Below, piece by piece: positions 1-17,484 of a DNA stretch of 64,000 nt (position 1 is the stretch's first letter; each line of letters begins with the position of its first letter). The notes under the pieces were generated by a model. It searched no databases. It saw only the letters and a list, made by a program, of their open reading frames with translations, and was not told where the DNA came from. Source of the DNA: Halopenitus malekzadehii (GTDB lineage Archaea; Halobacteriota; Halobacteria; Halobacteriales; Haloferacaceae); contig NZ_FNWU01000005.1 in assembly GCF_900108505.1 (NCBI RefSeq), positions 1 through 64,000 of the forward strand, read 5' to 3'. Position numbers and translations under genes: made by a program.

Positions 1-38
1 TATAGTAGTCGGTAGAGCTTTTTACTCAGAGAGGTATA

Positions 39-572
39 TTGCCTGTAATGGATCACCTCAACGAGATCTCTGTCGAAGAACTCCAAGAGGCGCTTGACAA
101 TGTTGATGGAAACAAGCCGACTCAACGGCTGTTAGCTGCGATCGCGTACAAAAACGGCGTCACGCAAACCGAACTTGCCGAATGGTACGACACAGAGCGA
201 AAAACGATCTATAACTGGCTCAACCGACTCGATACCGACGAACCGCTTGAACAAGCTGTTACAGATGCTCACCGATCTGGTCGGAAACGAAAAATCTCAG
301 AAAAACAGCAACAAGAGTTTGAACAAACAGTCCACGAATCACCCGAAGAGATCGGCGTTGACGCGCCGGCGTGGACGCCGGCGCTCGCACAAGAATATCT
401 TGAAGAAACGTACGGCGTCGACTACTCAATCCCAAGCTGCCGGCGGTTGTTGAAAGAAGCGGGATTGAGTTATCAAAAACCACGCCGCTCAGCGCCTGAA
501 TCCGACGAAGACGACCAAGAAGCGTTTCACGACGAGATCAAAAAAAGCGGCGAGAGATGGACGCCACAGTAG
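39..572 (+). CDS. IS630 transposase, N-terminal HTH part (OrfA)
   Basis: This 177-residue frame encodes the DNA-binding half of an IS630-type transposase. A helix-turn-helix lies near residues 25-65 (GVTQTELAEWYDTERKTIYN) and a second winged-helix-like part near residues 110-145. There is no catalytic residue here; the DDE core is in the next frame. The last 16 bases overlap OrfB in the -1 frame, and seven A residues at 540-546 lie just before the overlap. A fused product by -1 frameshifting is therefore likely, as known for IS630 members (inference). Confidence 0.82.
   Translation: MPVMDHLNEISVEELQEALDNVDGNKPTQRLLAAIAYKNGVTQTELAEWYDTERKTIYNWLNRLDTDEPLEQAVTDAHRSGRKRKISEKQQQEFEQTVHESPEEIGVDAPAWTPALAQEYLEETYGVDYSIPSCRRLLKEAGLSYQKPRRSAPESDEDDQEAFHDEIKKSGERWTPQ
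540..546 (+). other. Candidate -1 ribosomal frameshift site (A7)
   Basis: A run of seven A residues lies in OrfA, read AAA AAA A in its own frame. A slip by one base back here joins OrfA to OrfB without a stop codon and gives a single transposase. The site is seen directly; its use is inferred. Confidence 0.5.
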
Positions 573-1048
573 TCTGTATCGATCAAACCAAGAAATCGGT
601 CCAAGTTGAGCCGCGTGCCGCGTGGTTTCCGCGCGGCACGCGGCCGTCCGTCGAATTATCTGGTCAACGGGACTGGACGTGTCTGCTGGGCGCAATCACC
701 GAGGACGGTGATCGCTTTTTCTCTCGGTTTACAGAGTACATCACCGCCGACCACGCAAAACATTTCATTTTAGCACTATGTGAAGAATTTGAAGACGATC
801 TAATTGTTGTCCTCGATGGCGCACCGTATTTTCAGGCGTCGGCCGTCACGGACCTAGCGTCCCGTGACGACCTCGCGTTTGTGACGCTCCCATCGTATTC
901 ACCGGAGCTGAACCCAGTTGAGGAATGCTGGAGACAACTTCAAGCAGCACTCAGCAACCGTTTCTTCGACTCACTCGACGAGCTGACAACAGCGATCGAC
1001 AGTGCTCTTGACCAAATCTCTATCCCAAAAGTGAGCAACTATTTCTAA
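557..1048 (+). CDS. IS630 transposase, DDE catalytic part (OrfB)
   Basis: This 163-residue frame holds the RNase-H-like DDE core of an IS630 transposase. The three acidic residues are visible in VVCIDQ near residue 10, IVVLDGAPYF near residue 93 and YSPELNPVEECW near residue 127. The last stretch is the classic IS630 signature around the catalytic Glu. It may be expressed as a frameshift fusion with OrfA; its own ATG at 557 is also possible. The frame is complete and ends just before the right inverted repeat, so the element could still be active. Confidence 0.85.
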   Translation: MDATVVCIDQTKKSVQVEPRAAWFPRGTRPSVELSGQRDWTCLLGAITEDGDRFFSRFTEYITADHAKHFILALCEEFEDDLIVVLDGAPYFQASAVTDLASRDDLAFVTLPSYSPELNPVEECWRQLQAALSNRFFDSLDELTTAIDSALDQISIPKVSNYF

Positions 1049-1059
1049 CGTCTACTATA

Positions 1060-3814
1060 CATCCACGTGTCGAATGCGTCTGACGCGTCGACCGTGGAAT
1101 TCAACGCGACGCCGAACGCCTCGGCGGACGCGGTGACGGTAACCCTCGAAAACAACGCCTCTGAAACGGCCGCTGGCTACGAAGCCAACGGCACGATCAC
1201 GCCGTCGACGCTGGACCTCACCGGCAGTGATTCCGTTGATGTGCAGACATCGACTGAAGACCTCCTCGTGACTCCGACTAAAGAGTCGATCGAGGTCGCT
1301 GGTTCGACTGGTGGTGAAGATGCCCAGAACTTCGACGTTGACGTTGTTGGCAGTAATAACCAGGCACCCGGTTCCGGAAACCTCGATAATGCCACTGTCA
1401 CGATCAGCGGTGATGACGTTGGCATTAGCGAGCAGGAAGTCGTCCTGAACAGTTCCAATAATGCGGATGGAACGGCAAGCTTCAGTGGCCTCTACCCCGA
1501 ACAGGCGGGTGAGATCACTGTTGATGTTGTGGCGTACAAGACCGACGGCACTGAAGTGACTGACTCAGCATCCGTCTCGGTGACTGGTGACCAGTTCAAC
1601 AGCTTCAGTCCGACCAGTGCCACGATCGACGACACGATCGAGGCAAGCCTTCAGGTGACTGACGCGGACGGAGCACCGCTCAACAACCGTGTCGTGAACC
1701 TAACTCACGAGGACTCGAGCGGGTTCAACGTCACCGACGCTGACACCAGCTCGAATGACTACCAGACTGGACAGAACATCACGATCGACGGTCCGAACGG
1801 CGAAGTGAAGGTTGACGGCACGCCTGTCGCCACGTTCTCGTCGATCAACAACGGCGAATACTCGGCATCGAACATCAGCTTCGATGCGACTGGCTCGGTC
1901 AGTCTTGAAGTCGTGAACGCAGCTGGCAGTGACACGCGCGTGAACGCCACCGACGTGCTGAGTGTCACTGGTGCGGAAGTCTACGAGGTTTCCTCAGACA
2001 CGACTCCTGCACTGGCTGGCGTCTCCGAGATGCACAACCTGACCGTGACCGAGGATGGTCAGATTGTCAACGGTAGCGATCTTAGCAGCTTCACCGTCAC
2101 CCAGACCCACGATGGCTCTGAGACGCAACTCAGTCCGTCCCCCGTGGATACCGACGATGACGGCACGAACGACGCGCTGCAGGTATCCGTCAGCGCAACC
2201 AACGCCAGTGACACGCTCGAACTGCGTGTCGACGATGGAAACGCACGAACCGGATCGACGACGATTGACGTCGTCGCACCCGACATCACGGCGTCCATCA
2301 ACGATCAGGAGGGCAACGCCCTGACCGAGGGTCTCAACTCGACCGTGGTGTACACTGTCGAGGACCCGCGGGCGGGCGAGAGTGGTACCTTCGCAAATGG
2401 TGAAATTGCACTGACCGCTGTCAACACGACCTACGTCGTTAACGGCACGTCTCTCGCAGACGGCGACTCACCGCAGACGTACACGCTGGACGAGAACGGC
2501 CAGACAACGGTGACGGTCGGCGTCCAGCCGTTCGGCGAGGATGCGTCGGCACCGTTCGAACTGGTTCACAATGCAAATGACTCGGCCGGTTCAAGTACTG
2601 CCGCAGGTGACGTGTCGCTGCCGGCTGAGAGTCCGAGCATCTACCTCTTCGAGAACGGCGAGCGGGCTGACGTGCCTGCGAACGTCGAACCCAACACCGA
2701 GGTTGACTACACGTTCGAAGTGACCGACGCTAACGACCAGAACCTTCCGGTTGACGGCGTTGGCTTCGAGACGAACGGTGGTAACCTCGGCGTCGACACG
2801 ACCCTCGATGAAGGGTTCGTCGACGTAAGCGGTGACATCGGTTCCGGTACGGTCGATCTCAACATCAACGACACGGGCGTCAGTGCGACGACGCTTGACA
2901 GCATCGTGGCACTCGAGACGGCCGACCTGAACCTTTCGGCTGATTCGACCACGGTCACGCAGAACGACTCGATCGAGTTCACGCTCGAACGGCTCGACCG
3001 TGATCGACAGACGATCGGCCAGCTCACGATCACCGACGCCGACGGTAACGTAGTTGCGGAAAACCTCGAGATCGACGGCACCGAGTCGGTGACGTTCGAC
3101 ACCGCTACGTACTCGGCCGGTGACTACACGGTCGAGGCTACGAAGACGGCCTCCTCGCAGAAGACCTTCAACGCTGACACGGTCAACGTGACCGTCGAAG
3201 AGCCGGCAGGGCCGGAAGGCTACGCGATCACGAACGTCTCGCTCGAGCCGAACACGGTCGAGTCGAACACGACGGTCGACCACGACCTCAGCTACACGGT
3301 GACGAACGCGAGCAACGATGGGGACTCCGACGAGTACACGATCACGCTGCCCGCGAGCGCGAGCTTCGAGGGGAGCGCTCCCAACAGTCTGAACGTCACC
3401 GACGCGAACGGCGACGAGATCTCCATCTCGGACAGTGCGTCGCTGGCTGACGCGAACGGTGGCACGGACAACCAGATCGTCTTCGGCATCCAGCCGGACA
3501 GCGACTACGACACGAGCGCAGTGACCGTGGACGCGAACGTGACGGTGGCCTTCCCCGAGGTCTCCAACGAGACCGCGGCGGACGTCACGCTCGATGTCTC
3601 CGACAGCACGCAAGGTGACACGAGCGCGACGACCACCGTGACGATCACTCCGGCAGACGGCGAAGGCGAGTTCGACCCGGTTGCCGAGTACGGCAACGAG
3701 CAGGGCGAAGTCGCAACGGACGGGCTCATCACCGCCATCGGCGACTGGCGGAACGATGACCTGACGACCGAAGAGCTGCTGGCCGTCATCCAGCAGTGGC
3801 GGTCCGATAACTAA
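1060..3814 (+). pseudogene. Large Ig-like surface protein, 5' part cut off by IS630
   Basis: About 915 residues of a secreted surface protein remain. The open frame begins directly at the IS630 right end and has no signal peptide; the GTG at 1067 is only the first possible start codon. The sequence is rich in Asp, Thr and Asn-x-Thr sequons and consists of repeated Ig-like beta-sandwich segments, including one near residues 640-720 like the haloarchaeal BGTF/DUF7827 surface domains (ITDADG...AGDYTVEA). The C-terminus carries the dockerin-like tail shared by three neighbours (GLITAIGDWRNDDLTTEELL then IQQWRSDN). The missing 5' end should lie to the left of the window. The protein is probably no longer exported. 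Confidence 0.75.
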
Positions 3815-3816
3815 CT

Positions 3817-3840
3817 GATCGGGTCGCAGTTCCCCCGATC
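3817..3840 (+). terminator. Hairpin behind the truncated surface gene
   Basis: GATCGGG (3817-3823) pairs perfectly with CCCGATC (3834-3840), and a T-rich run (TTTTATTCTTTA) follows within 15 bases. This looks like a transcription terminator. Confidence 0.5.
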
Positions 3841-4081
3841 GGTCCTCGCGGTTTTATTCTTTATCGAACGCGACGCATCACCCCGTAGCCACGGCTTTGA
3901 TCGACTCCTGATCGACGGCAGCTCGCGGCGTCATCCGACACTGAACTCCGGGATCGACGCCGAAGCCTTCAACTCCAGATCGTAGCGGATGCCGTCCGAG
4001 AATACCCCTCAGCAGCTATGACCATCCACCGACTCGATGAATACCACCGAAAAATGACAATATAGTCACACTACCGGTGGC

Positions 4082-4087
4082 TTTAAA
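4082..4087 (+). promoter_or_regulatory. TATA box of the PPC/PKD protein gene
   Basis: TTTAAA is centred 28 bases before the ATG at 4113. The spacing puts the transcription start at or next to the ATG, as for leaderless haloarchaeal messages, and decides the start over the GTG at 4077. Confidence 0.6.
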
Positions 4088-4112
4088 CGAACCCGACTAC
4101 ACACCCACAGGT

Positions 4113-6467
4113 ATGTTTGGGTTGATCCGGGCACGACATACTGCTCACATTGCGCTTACTGTCATCCTCGTGTTAAGCGTGCTTGCGAGCGCGAGTGGAC
4201 CGGTCGCCGCTACCGGTGCGTACGAACCGAACGACGATTTCGACACGGCGAAATCGATCACGTCCGGGTTCAGCGGGGACACACGTATCGGGCCGGATGA
4301 CCAGGACTACTATGCGATCGACCTCGCGGAGGGCGAGACGGTGGATGTCACCGTGCGGAACGCAAAGGATGCCGACGTCAGCGTCGATCTCGAGTTGTAC
4401 GGCCCAACGGGCGAGTCCCGAAACATCGGCGAGGACCTGAGTACGGATATCTCGGATCAAACTCGGCATCGAATCGGATACGAAGCCGATGAAAGCGGGA
4501 CGTACTATGTTCTCGTCGATGGAGCCGGCGGCTCCAGTGACCCAGCGGCGAGCTATACGATCGATGTCGTTACCGCGCAAAACGATCGGTTTGAGCCAAA
4601 CGGCGTTATCGACAACGCCACCGAGATCACTGCGGGAACGTTCACCGATCTCACGTTGTTGTCGGGTGACACCGACTACTACGCGGTCACGCTCGGCGCC
4701 GGTGAAACGATCAACGCGACCGTTCGAAACGACAAGGATGCCGCGTTCGATCCCAACGTGGAGTTGGTCGATAGTAGTGGTGACCGGATCGAGATCGCTG
4801 AAGAGCTGAGCACCCAGATAGCCGATCGAACGAAGTATCGTCTCGGGTATGAAGTCGACACCGCCGGAACATACTATCTCGTGATTTCGGGGAGCGAGTA
4901 CGACGAGCACGACGTTGGATACACGTTGGACGTGGACGTCGCTTCGAACGATCGATTCGAACCGAACGGCGTCACCGACAAAGCGACCGAGATTACAGCC
5001 GGAGAGTACGGCAAGCTAACTCTCCTGTCGGGCGATACCGACTACTACGCGGTCACGCTCGGTGCCGGCGAAACGATCAACGCGACCGTCCGAAACGATA
5101 AGGATGCCGCGTTCGATCCCGACCTCACGCTCCTGGATAGTAGCGGCGATCAGGTCGAGATGGCCACCGATCTGAGCGAGCAGGTGGATGATCGAACGAG
5201 GTATCAGCTCGGATACGAAACCGATACCGCCGGGACATACTATCTCGAAGTCTCCGGAAACGAGTACGACGAACAGCATATCGGATACACGATGAACGTG
5301 GGTGTCGCTTCGAACGATCGGTTCGAGCCGAACGGCGTCACCGACAAAGCGACCGAGATTACAGCCGGAGAGTACGGCAATCTAAGTCTCCTGTCGGGTG
5401 ATACCGACTACTACGCGGTCACGCTCGATACCGGTGAAACGATCAACGCAACCGTCCGAAACGACAAGGATGCCGAATTCGATCCCGACGTTACCCTCCT
5501 GGATAGCAGCGGCGACCAGGTCGAGACGGCCACCGATCTGAGCGAGCAGGTGGATGATCGAACGACGTATCGGCTCGGATACGAAAGTCAGACCAACGGA
5601 ACGTTCTATCTCGAAGTTTCCGGAAACGAGTACGATGAACACCGTGTCGGATATACGATGGATGTGGGAATCGGATCGAACGATCGCTTCGAGCCCAACG
5701 GAGTGATCGGGGAAGCAGCACCAGTCAGCCCGGGAACCTATGAGGATCTGCAAATCCTCTCCGAAGAACGAGACTACTACGCGATCGACGTCTCCGCTGA
5801 CGAACAGCTTGATCTCACGGTTCAGCATAACAAGGACTATGACATGGATCTCGAAATCGTTGATTCGGACGATCAGATCCTTGCATCCGGATCTGATACC
5901 AGTGACACCACAAGCGACACAGCAAACCTGGACGTCTCCTATACACCGGACTCGTCGGGAACGTACTACATCCGTGTCGATAGTGCGATGTATACTGAGG
6001 AGACAGCCCCATACACGTTGTCGATCGAAGGCGGACAGGAGCCGACCAACGAACAACCATATACGGGCTTCTCCTTCACATACGATTCGAAGACCCCGAA
6101 CGAAGAGTTCCAATTCGATGCATCTGAATCGTATGATGTGGACGGGACGATCGTCTCCTACGAGTGGGACTTTAACGGCGATGGTACTATCGATACAACG
6201 GGCAGTACAGTGTCACATACATTCGCTGAACCGGGCGAATATCTAATTACGATGATAGCAACTGACGATGACGGTGCGACCTCATCTGCGACCGCATTCG
6301 TTACCGTGGAATCCGAATCGACCGGGAACGGGATCATCGATGAGTACGATACCAATGGGGACGGGATCGGGACCTCCGAATTGATAACGGCAGTCGCTGA
6401 CTGGCGAAACGGCGATCTGACCACGCGCAACCTCCTCCAACTGCTCGAAAGCTGGCGCTCCCTCTAA
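4113..6467 (+). CDS. Secreted PPC-repeat and PKD surface protein with dockerin-like tail
   Basis: This 784-residue exported protein has a signal peptide (residues 1-33, ending near GPVAATG). Five repeats of about 122 residues follow (residues 36-640); each has the pattern of bacterial pre-peptidase C-terminal (PPC) domains, with FEPN, DTDYYAV and GTYYL signatures. A PKD domain spans about 650-735 (YEWDFNGDGTIDT). The last 40 residues form an EF-hand-like/dockerin-like tail (YDTNGDGIGTSELITAVADW ... ESWRSL). No catalytic domain is visible, so it is probably a structural or binding protein of the cell surface. The ATG at 4113 is chosen because a TATA box sits 28 bases upstream. The middle repeats are very similar at DNA level. 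Confidence 0.85.
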   Translation: MFGLIRARHTAHIALTVILVLSVLASASGPVAATGAYEPNDDFDTAKSITSGFSGDTRIGPDDQDYYAIDLAEGETVDVTVRNAKDADVSVDLELYGPTGESRNIGEDLSTDISDQTRHRIGYEADESGTYYVLVDGAGGSSDPAASYTIDVVTAQNDRFEPNGVIDNATEITAGTFTDLTLLSGDTDYYAVTLGAGETINATVRNDKDAAFDPNVELVDSSGDRIEIAEELSTQIADRTKYRLGYEVDTAGTYYLVISGSEYDEHDVGYTLDVDVASNDRFEPNGVTDKATEITAGEYGKLTLLSGDTDYYAVTLGAGETINATVRNDKDAAFDPDLTLLDSSGDQVEMATDLSEQVDDRTRYQLGYETDTAGTYYLEVSGNEYDEQHIGYTMNVGVASNDRFEPNGVTDKATEITAGEYGNLSLLSGDTDYYAVTLDTGETINATVRNDKDAEFDPDVTLLDSSGDQVETATDLSEQVDDRTTYRLGYESQTNGTFYLEVSGNEYDEHRVGYTMDVGIGSNDRFEPNGVIGEAAPVSPGTYEDLQILSEERDYYAIDVSADEQLDLTVQHNKDYDMDLEIVDSDDQILASGSDTSDTTSDTANLDVSYTPDSSGTYYIRVDSAMYTEETAPYTLSIEGGQEPTNEQPYTGFSFTYDSKTPNEEFQFDASESYDVDGTIVSYEWDFNGDGTIDTTGSTVSHTFAEPGEYLITMIATDDDGATSSATAFVTVESESTGNGIIDEYDTNGDGIGTSELITAVADWRNGDLTTRNLLQLLESWRSL
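4581..5678 (+). repeat. Three tandem 366-bp repeats encoding PPC domains
   Basis: Units start at 4581, 4947 and 5313 (AACGATCG.TT.GA at each start), a constant period of 366 bases (122 codons). Units two and three are nearly identical over long runs. More diverged units precede (about 4218) and follow (5679). Confidence 0.85.
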
Positions 6468-6592
6468 GTGTAGCTGCAACGTAGCAGTTTCCGGTTATTC
6501 TCCTGGGCGTGTCTCTTTCGAAATACCGATAGCGTGGATCGACTGCACAGTCGAGTTTGCGGACGTCACCACCCGACTCCGGCCTTCCCAAA

Positions 6593-6600
6593 AATATAAT
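6593..6600 (+). promoter_or_regulatory. TATA box of the gene at 6625
   Basis: AATATAAT lies 25-32 bases before the ATG at 6625, the normal spacing for a leaderless transcript. Confidence 0.55.
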
Positions 6601-6624
6601 CGTCTCTATGTCGATGTATAGCTG

Positions 6625-8112
6625 ATGCCAGATACACATCACACACGTACGGCGACCGTCCTGTTCGTCGCCGTGCTGTGTCTCACCGCAGTTTCGGGGG
6701 GTATCGCCGCCGCCGAGTCCGGTTCGGGGACCGACGCGACGGTCGCGAGCAACCACGTCAGCCTGACCGTCGCGGACGTGGACGCGACCGCCGGCGGGAC
6801 GGCCACGCTCGAGTTCGTGCTGGAGAACACCGGCAGCGAGACGGCCAACGTCAGCCTCGACGTGAGTTCGCTGTACCAGCTAGAGGGTGCCGTCACCGTC
6901 GAGGACTTCGACGCCGACGGGGGTACCTGGTACGAAAGCGACCGCTACTGGTCGGCACCGAACTTCGACGCCTACCAGCTCGAACCCGGCGAGACCCAGT
7001 CGCCGAGCATCACGGTCTCGCTCGCGTCCGACACCGCCGGCCAGACCTTCGACGTCGAAGCCAACGTCGGTCCGCAGGACATCTCGGAGACCGCCACCAT
7101 CTCCGTCTCCGGGAGCGGCGGTGCGGCACCCGGTGACGGGAGCGGCGGCACCGGTGACGACGGAACCGGTGACAACACGACCGACGACGGAAGCGGTGAC
7201 AACACCACCGACGACGGAAGCGGCGACAACACGACCGGCGATAACGACAGCACCTCACAGGGGATCACCGCCGACCACAGTCCCGAGTCCGTGACCGCGG
7301 CGCCCGGCGAGGAGGTCTCGGTGACGGTTACGGTCGACTCCGACCAGCAGAACATCGATCTCTATACTGAGGAGATCGTGACCGGGTCGGGGATCGCCAA
7401 CATCACGTCGGCGAGCTCCCAGCAGACCCAGATTCCGACCGATCTTCCGAGCGACTCCTTCGAGGCAGTGTACCTGTCCTCGGTCGACTCCGATACGCTC
7501 GAATACACGGTTGCAGTCGACGAGCAGGCCCAACACGGGGATACCATTGACGTTGCCGGCACCGTCATCGATGGGAATGCAAACGAAACCGACGCCGGAA
7601 CGACGACCATCGAGGTGAGCCAGTTCTCGACCACCCGCGAACCGACCGACGCGACCGCGGCGCCGGGCGAGCAGGTCGAGGTCAACCTCGAGATCATCGG
7701 AACGGGAACGTCCGTCGACGTCGTCGAGGAGACCGCCTCGAGTGACGCCATCGACAGCTTCGAGATCGTCGACGCGGGCGCCGACACGACGACCCCGAGT
7801 ATCGGCGACAACGGCACCTCCGTGTCGGTCGTCCACACCAACCCGGTCGGCGGGGTGAACGTGAGCTATATGGTCAACGTCTCCGATGACGCCGCCGACG
7901 GCGAGACGCTGACCCTCTCCGGAACGGCCACCGGCCCCGACGCCCAGGCCGACACGGGGACGACCACGATCGAGGTGCAGGAGAACCCCTACGCCAACGA
8001 GCAGGGTCAGGTCGAGACCGGCGGTCTCGTGCAGGCGATCCAGGACTGGCGAACCCAGAACCTCAGCACGGTGGAACTCATCGAGCTCATCCAGCAGTGG
8101 CGCAGCAGGTGA
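6625..8112 (+). CDS. Secreted beta-sandwich surface protein with dockerin-like tail
   Basis: This 495-residue exported protein starts with a signal peptide (residues 1-31, VLFVAVLCLTAVSGGIAAAE). A CARDB/NEW3-type beta-sandwich domain covers about 35-165, then a Gly-Asp-Thr linker encoded by a 27-bp repeat, then two related beta-sandwich domains (about 220-331 and 332-450) that begin with APGE-VSVTV-like strands. The C-terminus is the shared dockerin-like tail (GLVQAIQDWRTQNLSTVELI, then QQWRSR). The first of the paired domains is almost the same as the N-terminal cassette of the S-layer glycoprotein at 11294-14128. No enzyme motif is seen. It may link surface components; cohesin-like function is only an inference from fold pattern and partner tails. 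Confidence 0.82.
   Translation: MPDTHHTRTATVLFVAVLCLTAVSGGIAAAESGSGTDATVASNHVSLTVADVDATAGGTATLEFVLENTGSETANVSLDVSSLYQLEGAVTVEDFDADGGTWYESDRYWSAPNFDAYQLEPGETQSPSITVSLASDTAGQTFDVEANVGPQDISETATISVSGSGGAAPGDGSGGTGDDGTGDNTTDDGSGDNTTDDGSGDNTTGDNDSTSQGITADHSPESVTAAPGEEVSVTVTVDSDQQNIDLYTEEIVTGSGIANITSASSQQTQIPTDLPSDSFEAVYLSSVDSDTLEYTVAVDEQAQHGDTIDVAGTVIDGNANETDAGTTTIEVSQFSTTREPTDATAAPGEQVEVNLEIIGTGTSVDVVEETASSDAIDSFEIVDAGADTTTPSIGDNGTSVSVVHTNPVGGVNVSYMVNVSDDAADGETLTLSGTATGPDAQADTGTTTIEVQENPYANEQGQVETGGLVQAIQDWRTQNLSTVELIELIQQWRSR
7168..7248 (+). repeat. 27-bp tandem repeat in a Gly/Asp/Thr linker
   Basis: Three 27-base units (7168, 7195, 7222) encode a GDN-TT-DDGS linker; the third has diverged. Such linkers are flexible and a likely O-glycosylation region. 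The copy number can change by slippage. Confidence 0.7.
7282..7617 (+). repeat. Domain cassette duplicated in the S-layer gene (copy 1)
   Basis: These 336 bases align without gaps to 11423-11758 (constant offset 4141). The stretch from CTCTATACTGA to CAGCAGACCCAG is almost identical at DNA level, unlike the sequences on either side. Confidence 0.8.
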
Positions 8113-8132
8113 CGCGGCCATCGCACGCCGAC

Positions 8133-8150
8133 GGGGAGTAGTATCTCCCC
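8133..8150. terminator. Hairpin between convergent genes
   Basis: GGGGAG (8133-8138) pairs perfectly with CTCCCC (8145-8150) around a 6-base loop, between the end of the gene at 8112 and the end of the protease gene at 8268. It may end transcription from one or both sides. Confidence 0.4.
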
Positions 8151-8267
8151 TCGACACCCCTAGCTGAGGACCGTCACCAGTACCGTCCGCCGATCAACGC
8201 ACGTTTGGACCCTTCTCACCGGCGGCATCCCGTCTTTACAGCTCCATAGCGAGGCCGATCCGACGCG

Positions 8268-10952
8268 TCAGCGACGTCTATCGGCGCGCCACGCCTGGAT
8301 CACGGCTATGAGGTCAACCGTCCGCAGCCGGTCCGCCCGCCAGTCCCGGATCGCGCTCACCAGCCCCCGAGTATCGATCCGGCCGTCGGTCCGGTACGGG
8401 TCGAGGCGATCCCCGACCACGTACCCCCCGATGACGCCATCGCGTCCGGTGGCGGCAGTGACCGTCTCGACCGTTCGGTTCCGCTCGGTCAGGAGTGCCG
8501 TCCATCCGGTCCCGTCGTGGCGCTTGAGCGTGATCTCGGTCCCCACCGCGCGCTCGCCGAGGCCGTAGGGGAGCGTGACCGTCGCCGGCGCCGACAGCTC
8601 CGACAGCGCCACCTGCCCGGTGACGGCCGTCTCGTTTTCGGGTGCCGCCGGCGCCGACGCCGGCACCGACACCGACCCGGACAGGTTCGTCCCGCGAACG
8701 GCGACGCCCTCGACGTTCCCGGCGTCGCCGCCGTCGATGGTGACGTCCCGAGCCTCGAGATCCCCCGCGGTGGCGGCCGAAAGCGGCGGGGTGCCGGCGA
8801 CCCGCGTCCCCGTCAGGGTCACGCGATCGACGTTCCGGACCCGGACGCCGGCGCCGGCCGTCCCCCGAAGGTCGCTTTCCGCGACTGCGAGCGAGCCCCC
8901 GCGCACGGCGAGCCCGGCATCCCCGGCGTCGACCTCGAGACCGGTGCCCGTCGTCGTCGCGTTCGTGACCGCGATGCCGTCGCCGTCGACCCCGGTGACG
9001 GTGACGTTCGAGAGGGTCGCCGTCGACGCGTTTTCGACGTCGATCCCCGTCCCCGTTCCGCCCTCGACGACGACCGACTCGAGGGTGACGTTCCCGGCGG
9101 CCGCGATCGCGATCGGATCGTCGGCGTCGGTGGTCCGGACGTCCGCGAGCGTCACCCCCGAGACGGCGGTCTCGCCCGCGGTCGCGATCGGGCTGGCGGT
9201 CCCCGCGATCGTGACGTTTCGGATCGTCACGTTCGAGCGAGCCTCCCCGGCGAGCTCGATCCCCACGCCGGTCCCGTCGATCGTGTGGCCGTTCCCGTCG
9301 ATGACGACGTCGTCGCTGCCGACGACGAGACAGCCGTCCTCGCCGGTGAGGTTGCCGGCCAACTCGACCGTGCCGGCGTACGCGATCCGCCCGCAGGTCG
9401 GCGCCCCCACGGCGCCGACGGCACCGTAGGCGTCGATCCGCCCCTCGCCCTGCCGCGTCGGGGCGTCACCGAGGTCGACAGCCGACTCGGCGATGACCTC
9501 CCGGATCGTCGCCGGCGTCGATCTCTCGCCGCCGCCTCCGGTTCGCTCCGCCGCCGCGATGGCGAGGGCGACGACGCCGGCCGCGTGGGGGGTCGCCATG
9601 CTCGTCCCGCTGAAGCGGTCGTACCCGTCGTCGGGAACGGCACTCAACACGCTCACCCCCGGCGCGACCACGTCTGGGACGACGTAGTGGTCGGGCCACG
9701 TCGCCGGCGGGGAGTCCCATTCGTCGCGGTGGACGGTTTCCCCGCCGGAGAAATACGCCACCGCATCGTCGTCGACGGCACCCACCGTTAGCGACTCGTG
9801 AACGTCGCCCGGCGATGAACTCGTGTTGGCACCGTTGTTTCCGCTGGCGGCGACGACGGTCGCTCCGGCGGTCTCCGCGCTCGTGACGAGGTCGATGAAC
9901 GCCTCCTCGCGTTTCGTGTTCGCGCCGAAACTCATGCTCACCACGTCGGCGTCGTTCTCGATGGCCCACTGGACGCCCGCACTGATCTGGCGGAACGTGC
10001 CCGAGCCGTCGGCCCCGAACGTCTTCGCGTGGAGCAGCTCGGCCTCGGGCGCGACGCCGATCGCGGTCCCGCTTTCGTTCCCGCCGGCGACGGTCCCGCT
10101 GACGTGCGTCCCGTGGCCGTTGGGGTCGTAGGGGTCCGAGACCAGCCGGACGCCGCGCTCGTCGAACTCCGCCCAGCCGCCGTCGGCGAGCGTGACGTCC
10201 GGGTGGTCCGGGTCGACGCCCGTATCGAGGACCGCCACCCGAACGCCGTCGCCGCGCGTCCCGTAGAGGTCCCACGTTCCCGGCACCCGGATCGTCTCGA
10301 GCCCGGCGCTCGCGTTCGCGGTCGTCGAGACGGCGACGGACCGTGCCGGGCGGTCCGTCCGCATCGCCGGCCGTCGGTCCTCGCTCCGGGTCGCCGATTC
10401 CGTCCGAACCTCGGTCGACGACCGGATCGCGGTGACGTTCGCGACGCGGGCCAGGCGGTCGATGCTCACTCGGTCGGGATCGACGGTCACCACGACTCCG
10501 TTGACGACCCAGAGCCGGCGGTCGATCTCGATGCCCGGGGTCCTCGCGGCCACGCGCTCGAAGGCGGCTCGCGTCGCGTTCGCGCGTGCCCGCATCGATC
10601 CGATCCGCTCGGTGCGGCTCCCGTCGGTGGCGTCGACGGCGTCGGCCGGATGGCCGTCGAACCGGACCAGGACGGTCGTGTTCCCCTCCGCGGTCCGGAT
10701 CGTCGAATCGATCGTGACGTTGTCGCTCCCGGGACCCGCCGATACCGATCCGTTCGTGGCGTCGTCACTCGTCCCTTCCGATCCCCCATCGTCGACGTTC
10801 GCCGTCTCGATCGGCGCCGTCGCCGCGATCGCGAGCGGAGCGACCGCTCCGACACTCACGAGGAGCATGAGACAGACGGAGACGGCGACGGCTCGGTGCT
10901 GCAAAGCGGCCGTCACGACTGCTCCCCGACTTGTCCTTCGGGACCAGGCCAC
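8268..10952 (-). CDS. Secreted subtilisin-like serine protease (S8) with beta-helix and dockerin-like tail
   Basis: This 894-residue exported protease begins with a signal sequence (residues 1-44) that has an SRR pair, so Tat export is possible. An I9-type propeptide covers about 85-180. The S8 catalytic domain spans about 220-520 with Asp243 (VAVLDTGVD), His283 (NGHGTHVSG), oxyanion Asn371 (AASGNNG) and Ser450 (FSGTSMATPH), so all catalytic residues are present. A right-handed beta-helix of NosD/pectate-lyase type follows (about 525-770). The end is the dockerin-like tail (GLVSAIRDWRADRLRTVDLI, then QAWRADRRR). Most haloarchaeal secreted subtilases lack such a tail; here it matches three neighbours, which suggests docking to the cell surface. 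Confidence 0.92.
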   Translation of the reverse strand: MAWSRRTSRGAVVTAALQHRAVAVSVCLMLLVSVGAVAPLAIAATAPIETANVDDGGSEGTSDDATNGSVSAGPGSDNVTIDSTIRTAEGNTTVLVRFDGHPADAVDATDGSRTERIGSMRARANATRAAFERVAARTPGIEIDRRLWVVNGVVVTVDPDRVSIDRLARVANVTAIRSSTEVRTESATRSEDRRPAMRTDRPARSVAVSTTANASAGLETIRVPGTWDLYGTRGDGVRVAVLDTGVDPDHPDVTLADGGWAEFDERGVRLVSDPYDPNGHGTHVSGTVAGGNESGTAIGVAPEAELLHAKTFGADGSGTFRQISAGVQWAIENDADVVSMSFGANTKREEAFIDLVTSAETAGATVVAASGNNGANTSSSPGDVHESLTVGAVDDDAVAYFSGGETVHRDEWDSPPATWPDHYVVPDVVAPGVSVLSAVPDDGYDRFSGTSMATPHAAGVVALAIAAAERTGGGGERSTPATIREVIAESAVDLGDAPTRQGEGRIDAYGAVGAVGAPTCGRIAYAGTVELAGNLTGEDGCLVVGSDDVVIDGNGHTIDGTGVGIELAGEARSNVTIRNVTIAGTASPIATAGETAVSGVTLADVRTTDADDPIAIAAAGNVTLESVVVEGGTGTGIDVENASTATLSNVTVTGVDGDGIAVTNATTTGTGLEVDAGDAGLAVRGGSLAVAESDLRGTAGAGVRVRNVDRVTLTGTRVAGTPPLSAATAGDLEARDVTIDGGDAGNVEGVAVRGTNLSGSVSVPASAPAAPENETAVTGQVALSELSAPATVTLPYGLGERAVGTEITLKRHDGTGWTALLTERNRTVETVTAATGRDGVIGGYVVGDRLDPYRTDGRIDTRGLVSAIRDWRADRLRTVDLIAVIQAWRADRRR

Positions 10953-11051
10953 GTGGCGATATGCCGATCGCCGCGAACGGAGTGGTCCCGGTTGGTTCGA
11001 TTTGGTGTAGTCGGAATGACGTTCGGTAGGAGGGGTGATGACATCAATTTT

Positions 11052-11074
11052 GTGGGGATGTCACATTTCCCCAC
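11052..11074. promoter_or_regulatory. Inverted repeat between protease and S-layer genes
   Basis: GTGGGGA (11052-11058) is repeated inverted as TCCCCAC (11068-11074) with 9 bases between. It lies in the 340-base gap between the divergent protease and S-layer genes, far from either start. It could be a regulator site; function unknown. Confidence 0.3.
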
Positions 11075-11186
11075 GGAGTTTGATATGACGAGCGTCGGAC
11101 GAGTGTTAGACCACGATTCGGCAAATCGACGCGTACACGTCCGTTACGCACATTTTTGCTCGATTCGGTTCGGCACTGATCCACAA

Positions 11187-11194
11187 AACATATA
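11187..11194 (+). promoter_or_regulatory. Possible TATA box of the S-layer gene
   Basis: AACATATA lies about 100 bases before the ATG at 11294. If used, the message would have a 5' leader of about 75 bases. An inverted repeat CTGAAC...GTTCAG lies inside this leader. Confidence 0.4.
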
Positions 11195-11293
11195 CCACAC
11201 CTGGTCAAATGCTGGATTGCATACCGACAATGCCAGCGTGGTGGCTGAACTGTGGCCGACTCGGTTCAGATGCCCGCTGCCAATAACCCAACA

Positions 11294-14128
11294 ATGATAG
11301 ACGAAACACAAACCGAACGGTTGCGCGCCGTCCTTCTGGCGTCGCTCATGGTCCTGTCGGTCTTCGCAGGTACCATGGCGTTCGCCGGCGGTGCCGCGGC
11401 CCAACAAGCAGACTCTCGGTCGCCGGGCTCGGCGACCGTTGCACCCGGTGGTACAGTTGACGTAACAGTCGAGATCAGCTCAGATCAGCAGAACATGGAT
11501 CTCTATACTGAAGAGATCGTGACTGGGTCAGGAGTCGCCAACATCACGTCGGCGAGCTCCCAGCAGACCCAGGTTCCGACTGATCTCCCGAGCGACTCGT
11601 TCGAGGCAGTATACCTGGCCTCGGTCGACTCTGATACGCTCGAATACACAGTTTCGGTCGACGATCAGGCTCAGGACGGAGAGACGATCGAGGTCTCGGG
11701 CACTATCGTCGATAGTAGTGCTAACGAGACTGACACCGGAACGACGACCATCACCGTCTCCGACGACCAGCAGCCGCCGGATAACGGCAACGGTGACGGC
11801 AACTCCGTGCGTGGAGACGCGCCGGCCAACTCCTGGTCCACCGCTGACGGAGCGGGTGACGTCGGTAACGGCGCCACCATCTTCCAGGGTGAGGAGAGCA
11901 TCACCTTTGTCGACGCCAACGGCGACGAGGTCTCGCCTAGCAGTCTCGAACGCACCGCCGGTGCCGACGAGGGCGTCCCGCTCTCGATGCCGATCCCGCA
12001 AGACCAGTCGACGGGTAGCTACGAGACCACCGACGGCTCCTTCGGCGTGACGGTGCAGACCCCGCGCGTGACGACCCTCGAAGTCCAGAACAACGGCGGG
12101 TCCGACGTCTCCGGTGGTATCCTCACCACGGATCAGGATAACGCCAGAGTCGTCTTCGACTACAACTACGATGACGCCGAGGACCTCGAGCTGACTGTCG
12201 AGGACGAGAACGGCCTCGACGTCACCGACGAGATCGTCGAGGGCTCCGACACCCTGAACGATGAGGGTAACGGCGCGTTCGCGATCGACCCCAACGCGGT
12301 CGACGCGGGCGAGTACACCTTCTCGGTCGCGGGCGTCGAGGATCTCGACTTCGGCTCCGCAACCGAATCCGTGACGGTCACGATTTCCTCCGACCGCACG
12401 GCATCCCTGAACCTGGACAGCGACGAGGTCGTCCAGGGCCAGAACCTGCAGTACACGATCGAAAACAGCCCGGAAGGTAACTTCCACGCAGTCGTCATCG
12501 ACTCCAGCGACTTCCGCGATGGCGTTACCGTTGACCAGGCCAAGATGGCCTTCCGTAACGTCGGCGACACCGCCGAAACCGGCGTCGTTGCCGACGACGG
12601 AGCGGTCAACCCCGATAACGTCGATGTCTCGGACATCGACTACGCCTACGCAGTCGTCGAGATCGACGACGGCAACGGCGTCGGGTCCGTCGAGACGCAG
12701 CACCTCGACGACTCGTCCATCGACATCGACCTCTACCCGGCCGGCGCGTCCATCTCCGACGGCGCGCTGACCGGTGACGTGACCGGCGTCGAGTCCGACG
12801 ACGACGCGTCCTTCGACGTGACCGAGGGTGACGTCTCCCTCGACAGCCCGTCCGGGGCGTACGTGGTCGGCTCCGAGGTTGACGTGAACGGTACCGCCAA
12901 CGAGGGCGTCGACGAAGTCGCCATCTACGCGCGGGACAACAACGAGTTCGAACTCGTCCACATCGACGATGCCCGGACGGTCGAAGTCGACAGCGACAAC
13001 TCCTTCGAGGAGGAGGACGTCACCATCTCGCAGGGTGACGGCGGCGGTAACAACCTCCTCACGCTGCCCGGCACCTACCGACTCGGCGTCATCGATGCGG
13101 CCGACGCCGACATCGACAGTACCGAGGGCGTTGACGACACGCTCTCCACGTCCAACTTCAACAGCGGCGTCAGCAGCACCTCGTCGATCTCCGTGACCGA
13201 CACCGAGCTCGACGGCTCCTTCACGACGATTAACGGCCAGGTCGCCACCGAGGACGGTCAGGTCGACGTCGAGGGCACCGCGCCCGGTAAGGACGAGCTC
13301 GTGGTCGCCTTCGTGGACTCCCGCGGTAACGCGGCAGCCTACGACATCACCGTCGACGGCGACGGTACCTTCGATGAGGAGGACCTCAACATCGGGGACC
13401 TGAGCGAGGGTACCCTCTCCGCGCACATCATCTCGTCCGGTCGTGACGGGAGCTTCGGCGACGGTGTCGCCGACAACGCGGGCGACTTCGCCGACCTCAT
13501 CGTGAACGACTACGCCGGCGGCGCAAGCACCGGCAACCAGGTCCGCGACCGCATCCTCGCCAACTCCGTCGAGGACACGGCGAGCGACGACCTGATCGTC
13601 ACGGAGAACTTCCGGCTCGCCAGCGGCCTCACGACGATCGAGTCCGCGACCGACCCGGTCGCTCTCGACGGGACGCTCACGGTCGAGGGTACGACCAACC
13701 GTGACTCCGAGGACAACACCATCACGGTGGAGCTCCTCAACGAGGACGGCGACTCGATCACCATCGACAGCACTGACGAGTGGGACACCGACGGACAGTG
13801 GTCCGTCGAGCTGGACCTCTCCGAGGCTGACCTCGAAACCGGTACCTACACGGTCGAATCCGACGACGGTGACAACACCGACCGCGTCGACATCGAGGTC
13901 GTCGAAGAGGTAGAGGAAACGGAAACCACGGAACCCACCGAGGAACCCACGGAGGAACCCACGACTGAGCCCACCGAGGAACCCACGGAGGAGCCCACGA
14001 CTGAAGCGACTGAGGAACCCGCAGACACGACTGAGCCGTCCGAGTCCGAGACGCCCGGCTTCGGTGCCGTCGTCGCGCTCGTCGCGCTCGTCGCCGCTGC
14101 GCTCCTCGCAGTCCGACGCCGTCCCTAA
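11294..14128 (+). CDS. csg: S-layer glycoprotein with extra N-terminal beta-sandwich cassette and PGF-CTERM anchor
   Basis: This 944-residue protein has the typical haloarchaeal S-layer signal peptide (RAVLLASLMVLSVFAGTMAF) and the usual S-layer body from about residue 170 on (GATIFQGEESITF, PLSMPIPQDQSTG). It ends in a Thr/Glu/Pro-rich linker and a PGF-CTERM signal (PGFGAVVALVALVAAALLAV plus Arg), which archaeosortase ArtA cuts to attach lipid. Between signal peptide and body, residues 43-155 are a cassette nearly identical to a domain of the protein at 6625-8112; canonical S-layer proteins start with the body directly. The ATG at 11294 is chosen because it gives the normal signal peptide. 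The cassette may be a docking site for the tailed neighbours (inference). Confidence 0.9.
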   Translation: MIDETQTERLRAVLLASLMVLSVFAGTMAFAGGAAAQQADSRSPGSATVAPGGTVDVTVEISSDQQNMDLYTEEIVTGSGVANITSASSQQTQVPTDLPSDSFEAVYLASVDSDTLEYTVSVDDQAQDGETIEVSGTIVDSSANETDTGTTTITVSDDQQPPDNGNGDGNSVRGDAPANSWSTADGAGDVGNGATIFQGEESITFVDANGDEVSPSSLERTAGADEGVPLSMPIPQDQSTGSYETTDGSFGVTVQTPRVTTLEVQNNGGSDVSGGILTTDQDNARVVFDYNYDDAEDLELTVEDENGLDVTDEIVEGSDTLNDEGNGAFAIDPNAVDAGEYTFSVAGVEDLDFGSATESVTVTISSDRTASLNLDSDEVVQGQNLQYTIENSPEGNFHAVVIDSSDFRDGVTVDQAKMAFRNVGDTAETGVVADDGAVNPDNVDVSDIDYAYAVVEIDDGNGVGSVETQHLDDSSIDIDLYPAGASISDGALTGDVTGVESDDDASFDVTEGDVSLDSPSGAYVVGSEVDVNGTANEGVDEVAIYARDNNEFELVHIDDARTVEVDSDNSFEEEDVTISQGDGGGNNLLTLPGTYRLGVIDAADADIDSTEGVDDTLSTSNFNSGVSSTSSISVTDTELDGSFTTINGQVATEDGQVDVEGTAPGKDELVVAFVDSRGNAAAYDITVDGDGTFDEEDLNIGDLSEGTLSAHIISSGRDGSFGDGVADNAGDFADLIVNDYAGGASTGNQVRDRILANSVEDTASDDLIVTENFRLASGLTTIESATDPVALDGTLTVEGTTNRDSEDNTITVELLNEDGDSITIDSTDEWDTDGQWSVELDLSEADLETGTYTVESDDGDNTDRVDIEVVEEVEETETTEPTEEPTEEPTTEPTEEPTEEPTTEATEEPADTTEPSESETPGFGAVVALVALVAAALLAVRRRP
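11423..11758 (+). repeat. Domain cassette duplicated from/to the gene at 6625 (copy 2)
   Basis: This is the partner of 7282-7617, in the same orientation 4.1 kb away. The core LYTEEIVTGSG-x-ANITSASS is identical in protein, and the DNA is nearly identical in long runs, which suggests recent duplication or gene conversion. Confidence 0.8.
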
Positions 14129-16345: not shown

Positions 16346-17484
16346 TCCCCGGCGACCTCCTGACCCGGTTCCCGAGCGTTCTGATGGCGTGGCGGAACCT
16401 CGGCCGGAACCGGATGCGGACCGCGCTCGCAGCCCTCGGAATCTTGATCGGCGTCGTCGCGATCGCGTCGCTCGGGATCGCGGGGGTGGCGATCCAGACC
16501 CAGGCGAACGCCGACCTCGGCAGCCTCACGAACCAGGTGACCGTCTCCAGCGGTCAGGACAGCCCGACCGACGGCGTCACCGACGACCAGGTGACCCGGA
16601 TCGAGCGGGTCGTCACCGACGCGCGGGTGGTGCCCCAGAAGACGAACACCACGACGATCGAGTCGCGGGAGGGCGAGGCCTTCGTGGCCGTCACGGGGCT
16701 GACCGCGGCCGACGCGCTGTACAACGCGTCCGTGGGTGAGGCGCCGTCCCGGCTCCAGTCCGGCGCGTTGGTGAGCGCCGAGACGGCTCGAGAGTTGGGT
16801 CTCGAACTCGGTGACCCGGTCGAGTACGAGGGCCGCCTCTACCGGATCCGGGGGCTGATCGAGGCCGAGGGTGGCTTCGGCGGCGGGGGGAACGAGCTCG
16901 TGATCCCGATCTCGGGGCTCTCGGACCAGCAGCACTACGACACCGTGACGATCGTCGCCGCCGACGGCGAGGCGGCGTCCGGGATCGCCGACCGGCTCGA
17001 GGCCGAGTTCAACGACGGCGAGGACGAGGAACTGAGCGTCACCAGCTTCGCGAGCGCCCAGGAGAACATCGACTCCTTCCTGAACACGTTGAACCTCGCG
17101 CTGTTGGGTATCGGCTCGATCTCGCTGGTCGTCGCCAGCGTCGCGATCCTCAACGTGATGTTGATGTCCACGATCGAGCGCCGCGGAGAGATCGGCGTCC
17201 TGCGCGCGGTCGGGATCCGGCGGGGGGAAGTCCTCCGGATGATCCTCACCGAGGCCGCCTTCATCGGCGTGATCGGCGGCCTGCTCGGCGCGATCGTCTC
17301 CCTCGGGGTCGGGCTCGTGCTGTTCGACGTCGTCGCCGGCGACCCCCTGCTGGTCCTGCGGTGGGACAGCGTCCGATACCTCGTCGCCGGGTTCGCGTTC
17401 GCCGTCGTCGCCAGCGTCCTCAGCGGGCTCTACCCCGCCTGGAAGGCGGCCACCGATCGCCCCGTCGAGGCGCTTCGAGGGTGA
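16342..17484 (+). CDS. ABC transporter permease, MacB/FtsX family
   Basis: This 380-residue permease has the MacB layout: a first membrane helix (residues 30-55, ALGILIGVVAIASLGIAGVA), a periplasmic-core-like extracellular domain (about 56-245) and three FtsX-type helices (about 260-285, 315-340, 350-372). The short SxNVMLMST-ER-EIGVLRAVG motif between helices is the usual coupling region to the ATPase. It forms an operon with the ATPase and the CARDB protein. MacB-type transporters do not move substrate through the membrane but work mechanically on the outside. The substrate cannot be told from sequence. Confidence 0.9.
   Translation: MIPGDLLTRFPSVLMAWRNLGRNRMRTALAALGILIGVVAIASLGIAGVAIQTQANADLGSLTNQVTVSSGQDSPTDGVTDDQVTRIERVVTDARVVPQKTNTTTIESREGEAFVAVTGLTAADALYNASVGEAPSRLQSGALVSAETARELGLELGDPVEYEGRLYRIRGLIEAEGGFGGGGNELVIPISGLSDQQHYDTVTIVAADGEAASGIADRLEAEFNDGEDEELSVTSFASAQENIDSFLNTLNLALLGIGSISLVVASVAILNVMLMSTIERRGEIGVLRAVGIRRGEVLRMILTEAAFIGVIGGLLGAIVSLGVGLVLFDVVAGDPLLVLRWDSVRYLVAGFAFAVVASVLSGLYPAWKAATDRPVEALRG

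Follow-up and report, generated by a model that had tools for sequence, protein, structure and literature searches.

The window, the whole 64,000-nucleotide stretch of Halopenitus malekzadehii DNA analysed here, holds a cluster of four genes whose products end in a shared C-terminal module (the tail), next to a gene for an S-layer glycoprotein in which an additional domain (the cassette) stands behind the signal peptide (Table 1). The common tail that the earlier note had described on four neighbouring, different secreted proteins is present as a module of about 45 residues that ends genes 1–4, and the two W-R pairs described as conserved in it are both among the 12 of 49 columns that are invariant in the four-tail alignment. 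The EF-hand-like loop DTNGDG, described as intact in one tail, is that of gene 2; it lacks one residue of a canonical EF-hand, and the loops of the other three tails are degenerate. The description of all four neighbours as secreted needs a reservation for gene 1, which now has no signal peptide because its 5′ end is cut by a complete IS630-like element at the contig edge (window positions 1–1060; two ORFs; ends TATAGTAG.. and ..CTACTATA). The adjacency to the S-layer gene stood for the tailed S8 protease gene (gene 4), although the two are divergently oriented.

Table 1. Features of the tailed-gene cluster and the adjoining S-layer glycoprotein gene (positions in the window)
Feature	Positions	Strand	Evidence and remarks
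Gene 1, Ig-like surface protein	1067..3814	+	5′ end cut by IS element; C-terminal tail 3671-3808
Gene 2, secreted protein with four PPC domains and PKD	4077..6467	+	Pfam PPC 3.6e-19, PKD_4 7e-18; tail with partial EF-hand loop 6327-6464
Gene 3, scaffoldin-like: signal peptide, beta-sandwich, cassette A, cassette B, tail	6625..8112	+	
Cassette A of gene 3	7270..7626	+	cassette profile, E = 7e-61
Cassette B of gene 3, immediately before the tail	7630..7983	+	cassette profile, E = 2e-49
Tail of gene 3	7978..8109	+	tail profile; AF2: two helices, pLDDT about 86-96
Gene 4, secreted S8 (subtilisin-like) protease with beta-helix	8268..10952	-	Peptidase_S8 1.8e-50, Beta_helix 2e-11; C-terminal tail 8280-8414
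S-layer glycoprotein	11252..14128	+	TIGR04216; likely true start ATG 11294
Signal peptide of S-layer protein (halo_sig_pep, residues 24-51)	11321..11404	+	TIGR04207
Cassette of S-layer protein, nine predicted strands, cohesin-like fold	11411..11764	+	cassette profile, AF2, Foldseek
csg-homologous part of S-layer protein	11861..14119	+	ends in PGF-CTERM 14042-14122

In genes 1–4 the tail stands at the position where a PGF-CTERM would stand, and the tailed proteins therefore have no C-terminal anchor of the PGF-CTERM kind. Both modules are confined to this cluster: across the whole 3.14 Mb genome, a profile of the four window tails found exactly four copies and the cassette profile exactly three, all of them within it.

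The S-layer glycoprotein is of the HVO_2072 type (TIGR04216, 1015.7 bits against a cut-off of 400), with TIGR04207 (halo_sig_pep) and TIGR04126 (PGF-CTERM) both above cut-off, and its residues 204–957 align with Haloferax volcanii csg (7ptp; E = 6e-174), the homology starting only at residue 204. The extra domain that had been noticed behind its signal peptide is borne out as a cassette of about 115 residues that precedes the csg-homologous part. The near identity claimed between this cassette and cassette A of gene 3 holds for codons 22–77 (91% of nucleotides) but not for the ends (51% and 72%); overall, the two are 75% identical, and cassette B is a diverged copy. Differences between the S-layer cassette and cassette A are clustered beyond chance (p = 0.002; synonymous differences only, p = 0.004), a heterogeneity of core and flanks that fits a recent exchange of the core or gene conversion, by which the two cassettes may be kept at one specificity. 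Since the D1/D2 dome of csg points away from the membrane (PMC8640222), a domain ahead of D1 should, by homology, be displayed on the outer face of the S-layer, with one copy per subunit. Comparison at four loci (in G153, G076, G293, and G009) showed that TIGR04216 S-layer proteins vary in their N-terminal slot, with an unrelated extra domain in a species of the same genus, none in another, and further domains elsewhere; this N-terminus seems to be a site of exchange.

Nature of the tail and the cassette

Type I dockerins (PF00404) consist of two calcium-binding F-hand repeats of about 22–24 residues, and cohesins (PF00963) have a nine-stranded jelly-roll fold. The tail does not comprise two such calcium-binding repeats: its roughly 45 residues form two helices in the AF2 model, and its alignment resolves into two halves of one pattern, I.T..L..(A/V)I..W, with the second loop cut and the first degenerate in the window; a full 12-residue EF-like loop was seen only in some relatives (e.g., in G002 and G024). 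The Dockerin_1 profile (PF00404) matched nothing in the genome and none of 41 tails at E ≤ 5, and no Pfam or NCBIfam model above its cut-off calls the tail a dockerin or the cassette a cohesin. The best matches of the tail profile in the PDB were EF-hand proteins (E 0.001–0.01), and Pfam EF-hand_6 was found in 7 of the 41 tails (best 9e-6; the first member below its cut-off), which suggests EF-hands, its best PDB and Pfam matches, as the nearest relatives of the tail. The tail is a portable module, since it also occurs near the N-terminus of a few proteins, just after the signal peptide (L129:5666-11071, L136:12496-13881, and L145:7838-9118).

For the cassette, Pfam Cohesin (PF00963) gave no match to the five window proteins at E ≤ 1, did not figure in the families listed at E ≤ 5 for related proteins with cassettes, and was absent from the list of 25 families obtained with 25 isolated cassettes. 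The likeness to cohesins that the earlier note had proposed gained support from a fold search and a profile search, both of which were topped by cohesins. The AF2 model of the S-layer cassette has nine strands (pLDDT 71, pTM 0.66, residues 51–62 below 50; alignment of 5 rows), and when this model, with its pLDDT of only 71, was compared with the PDB in Foldseek, the four best matches were cohesins (E 9e-6, TM 0.62–0.66), several further cohesins fell within E 1e-3, and the Archaeoglobus cohesin 2xdh stood at rank 20; non-cohesin beta-sandwiches (YcnI) scored nearly as high as the cohesins. The cassette sequence profile, run against 177,635 PDB sequences, returned two autonomous cohesins as its best matches at a weak E of 0.01. 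Neither search is strong alone; they are different methods applied to the whole PDB, and both lead toward cohesins. A model of both cassettes together with the tail was also submitted to the fold search, which yielded only tandem Ig proteins and was uninformative, the single-cassette model being clearer; the alignments used for structure prediction were shallow (11 and 5 rows).

Linkage of tails and cassettes across archaeal genomes

Using profiles built solely from window sequences, cassettes were found in 9 of 18 tail-bearing genomes and in 17 of 274 others among 292 other genomes of the order (p = 2e-6). Richer profiles (A5 for tails, A4 for cassettes) applied to 293 genomes found tails in 28, cassettes in 71, and both in 22; cassettes thus occurred in 22 of 28 genomes with tails versus 49 of 265 without (Fisher p = 2e-10). 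The window-only test is the cleaner of the two because the richer profiles were built in part from loci found by the first search. The earlier note had named tails that are common in genomes without a cassette protein as a finding that would count against docking; the idea withstood this check, since only about 10% of the order's genomes have tails and the link of these to cassettes is strong. The linkage extends to position: of 98 tails, 36 lay no more than 10 kb from a cassette, against an expectation of 1.8, and 19 genomes contained such a pair (1.6 expected). Mere clustering of surface genes is unlikely to account for this, since only 4 of 72 PGF-CTERM proteins without a cassette lay near a tail in ten genomes picked for having a pair.

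No cassette was detected near the tails of six genomes (G125, G140, G198, G223, G233, and G280), in G198 at a contig edge, and the 23 tails of one genome (G267) are spread over the chromosome with only two detected cassettes. In MMPL/RND-type transporters of many haloarchaea (five loci), the last transmembrane segment is followed by a cassette and a divergent tail, which may face the cytoplasm, and many cassettes stand in genomes without tails because such cassette-tail dyads end these transporters. A mirror-tree comparison of tail and cassette distances was weak (rho 0.11, p 0.13 between families), and no support is drawn from it. Neither module was found in the viral contigs searched, the plasmids contained no tail and a single weak cassette match (to an MMPL transporter), and a scan of the genome collection with a tight tail alignment returned one locus.

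Fourteen loci, from at least six families, combine a tailed gene with a neighbouring gene for an S-layer or PGF-CTERM surface glycoprotein whose cassette directly follows the signal peptide; 11 of these are firm and three (G024, G258, and G049) depend on a looser cassette profile. The S-layer gene is of the TIGR04216 type in the window, G154, G129, and, partially, G135, and BGTF/NF041335-like in G213, G132, G119, G035, G214, G002, Natronococcus pandeyae, and the three looser-profile loci, of which G258, itself outside the NCBIfam scan, was placed by a tailed neighbour that is 93% identical to that of G024. The tailed and S-layer genes are separated by gaps of only about 10–35 bp in G129, G035, G132, G119, and G213, which suggests that they are co-transcribed there as operons, and homology links several of the large tailed partners, which have S-layer-type signal peptides. 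Scaffoldin-like proteins with multiple cassettes were also found beside tailed genes, with five cassettes in G236 (PGF-anchored), four in G174 (PGF below cut-off), and a tandem array in G048 that is ended by the contig edge. Adapter-like peptides (SLIHIS.., MCIRDS) appear in reading frames around position 16945 of locus L064 (G236:C4) and are likely an assembly artefact; the five-cassette gene of G236 lies elsewhere on that contig.

A layout close to that of the window was seen in N. pandeyae LS1_42, in which six tailed genes in a row, the sixth encoding an S8 protease with a cassette and a tail, are followed by a cassette-bearing S-layer-type gene; both cassettes of this 5.3 Mb genome and six of its seven tails are in the cluster. 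Gene 1 of the window is 30% identical over 650 aa to the product of the second tailed gene of the N. pandeyae cluster (E = 2e-44), gene 2 is homologous to a tailed protein of G049, and tailed S8 proteases occur in three clusters (the window, G154, and N. pandeyae). Outside the order but within the phylum, three families (f19, f21, and f22) carry tails, for example on C1/C25 proteases and NosD-like proteins, and a tailed gene adjoins a cassette gene in three such genomes (G378, G431, and G460). Two small non-haloarchaeal genomes (G304 and G356) encode proteases of the C25 and C1 families that have both the tail and NosD-like repeats (L158 and L157); no full-length cassette match was found in either, although a tailed protein of G356 contains two stretches that resemble cohesins.

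Candidate docking on the S-layer and its alternatives

We consider it likely that the cluster is a cohesin-dockerin-like surface docking system whose receptor is built into the S-layer, and the linkage by genome and by locus, with the likeness of the cassette to cohesins, makes the docking of tails on cassettes well supported as a hypothesis. The cassette would be a cohesin-fold receptor placed in the S-layer glycoprotein after the signal peptide and ahead of the first lattice domain, and the tail a compact pair of F-hand-like helices, with calcium loops that are mostly degenerate, ending secreted proteins that have no anchor of their own. We infer that tails bind cassettes in trans, and insertion of the tails into the S-layer cassettes is the simplest reading. 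The protease (gene 4) and the Ig and PPC/PKD proteins (genes 1 and 2) would then be held on the S-layer by their tails, and gene 3 may encode an adaptor whose tail plugs into the S-layer and whose two cassettes take further cargo. A bolder version, possible but doubtful in our judgment, is that the S-layer lattice itself is the scaffoldin in many archaea, with tailed proteins occupying the cohesin-like socket of every subunit as an exchangeable second coat. The main subunit of this second tier would be the large, co-transcribed tailed partner whose signal peptide is of the S-layer type, and such cells would have a two-layer, re-equippable surface.

The main rival, which we regard as improbable, makes the two modules a single unit in cis that resembles an X-module-dockerin dyad: the beta-sandwich would stabilise the tail, the dyad or the tail would bind a glycan or another surface protein, and the S-layer copy would be an extra Ig-like display domain. 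The cassette does directly precede the tail in gene 3, in the S8 protease of N. pandeyae, and in the MMPL transporters, and the C-terminal dyads of the latter occur in genomes without other tails, where the pair may act within one chain. Most tailed proteins, however, have no cassette, the cassette-bearing S-layer proteins have no tail, the complementary halves adjoin at 14 loci, and tandem arrays of four to five cassettes exist without a tail. Binding in trans and in cis may also be related, the S-layer and tailed genes holding complementary halves of the dyad.

We give little credence to the proposal that tails bind an insoluble substrate or an S-layer glycan instead of a protein; haloarchaeal "dockerin type I" domains have been assigned to substrate binding (PMC10963439, PMC13260240), but the passages that make this assignment give no binding data, one tail ends proteases, PQQ propellers, Ig proteins, and PKD proteins without a common substrate, and the linked cassette would be left unexplained. 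Least probable of all, in our estimation, is coincidence, in which the cassettes would be generic NEW3/DUF11-like sandwiches and the tails generic C-terminal caps brought together by the clustering of surface genes. Weak matches of the cassettes to several Ig-like Pfam families do exist, cassette profiles drift into Ig-like domains when made looser, and an unrelated extra domain occupies the same N-terminal S-layer slot in a sister species; against this, the co-location of tails and cassettes is far over chance, the cassette-free PGF-CTERM proteins were so seldom near tails, and the pairing recurs in other archaeal families.

Comparison with known systems

In many archaea, the most abundant proteins of the cell surface are those of the S-layer, and, to our knowledge, the retention of secreted enzymes on archaeal cells is poorly understood. 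If tails do dock on the S-layer cassette, a receptor in the lattice protein would provide a docking site on every S-layer subunit, a class of proteins that archaea secrete with an unannotated tail at the C-terminus would be accounted for, and a ready-made, salt-stable pair would be available for protein display on archaeal cells. In the literature searched, which covered few subscription papers, no description was found of a cohesin-like domain in a haloarchaeal S-layer protein or of the tail-cassette pair.

The window's S-layer protein shares its signal peptide type and PGF-CTERM with H. volcanii csg (7ptp), which has no domain before D1, the position at which the window protein has its cassette. 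The cohesin (2xdh) and dockerin of Archaeoglobus fulgidus are likewise archaeal and non-cellulosomal, and 2xdh was among the fold matches of the S-layer cassette, whereas it was absent from the sequence matches of the cassette profile and, as far as is known, is not part of an S-layer protein; archaeal cohesin-dockerin pairs are reported to bind in work cited in PMC9012536. ANME-2c proteins that combine S-layer domains with a dockerin have been proposed to hold proteins on the outer layer of the archaeal cell, and ANME also have multi-cohesin, scaffoldin-like proteins (PMC9012536). Attachment to the outer layer by a cohesin-dockerin pair would be common to both systems, but the polarity is opposite, the ANME-2c S-layer-domain protein having the dockerin and the window S-layer protein the cohesin-like receptor, and the ANME domains are recognised by public libraries whereas those of the window are not.

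The bacterial cohesin-dockerin systems (the cellulosome and cell-surface anchoring scaffoldins) offer the same division into a beta-sandwich receptor on anchored or scaffold proteins and a small EF-hand-type tail on secreted enzymes, together with adaptor proteins that have both parts and scaffolds with multiple receptors. The parts in the window differ in matching neither Pfam Cohesin nor Dockerin_1 and in a tail that is about 45 residues long and whose calcium loops are mostly degenerate. Whereas the bacterial receptors are on SLH- or sortase-anchored accessory proteins, the candidate receptor of the window lies inside the lattice-forming S-layer protein itself, which is lipid-anchored via PGF-CTERM.
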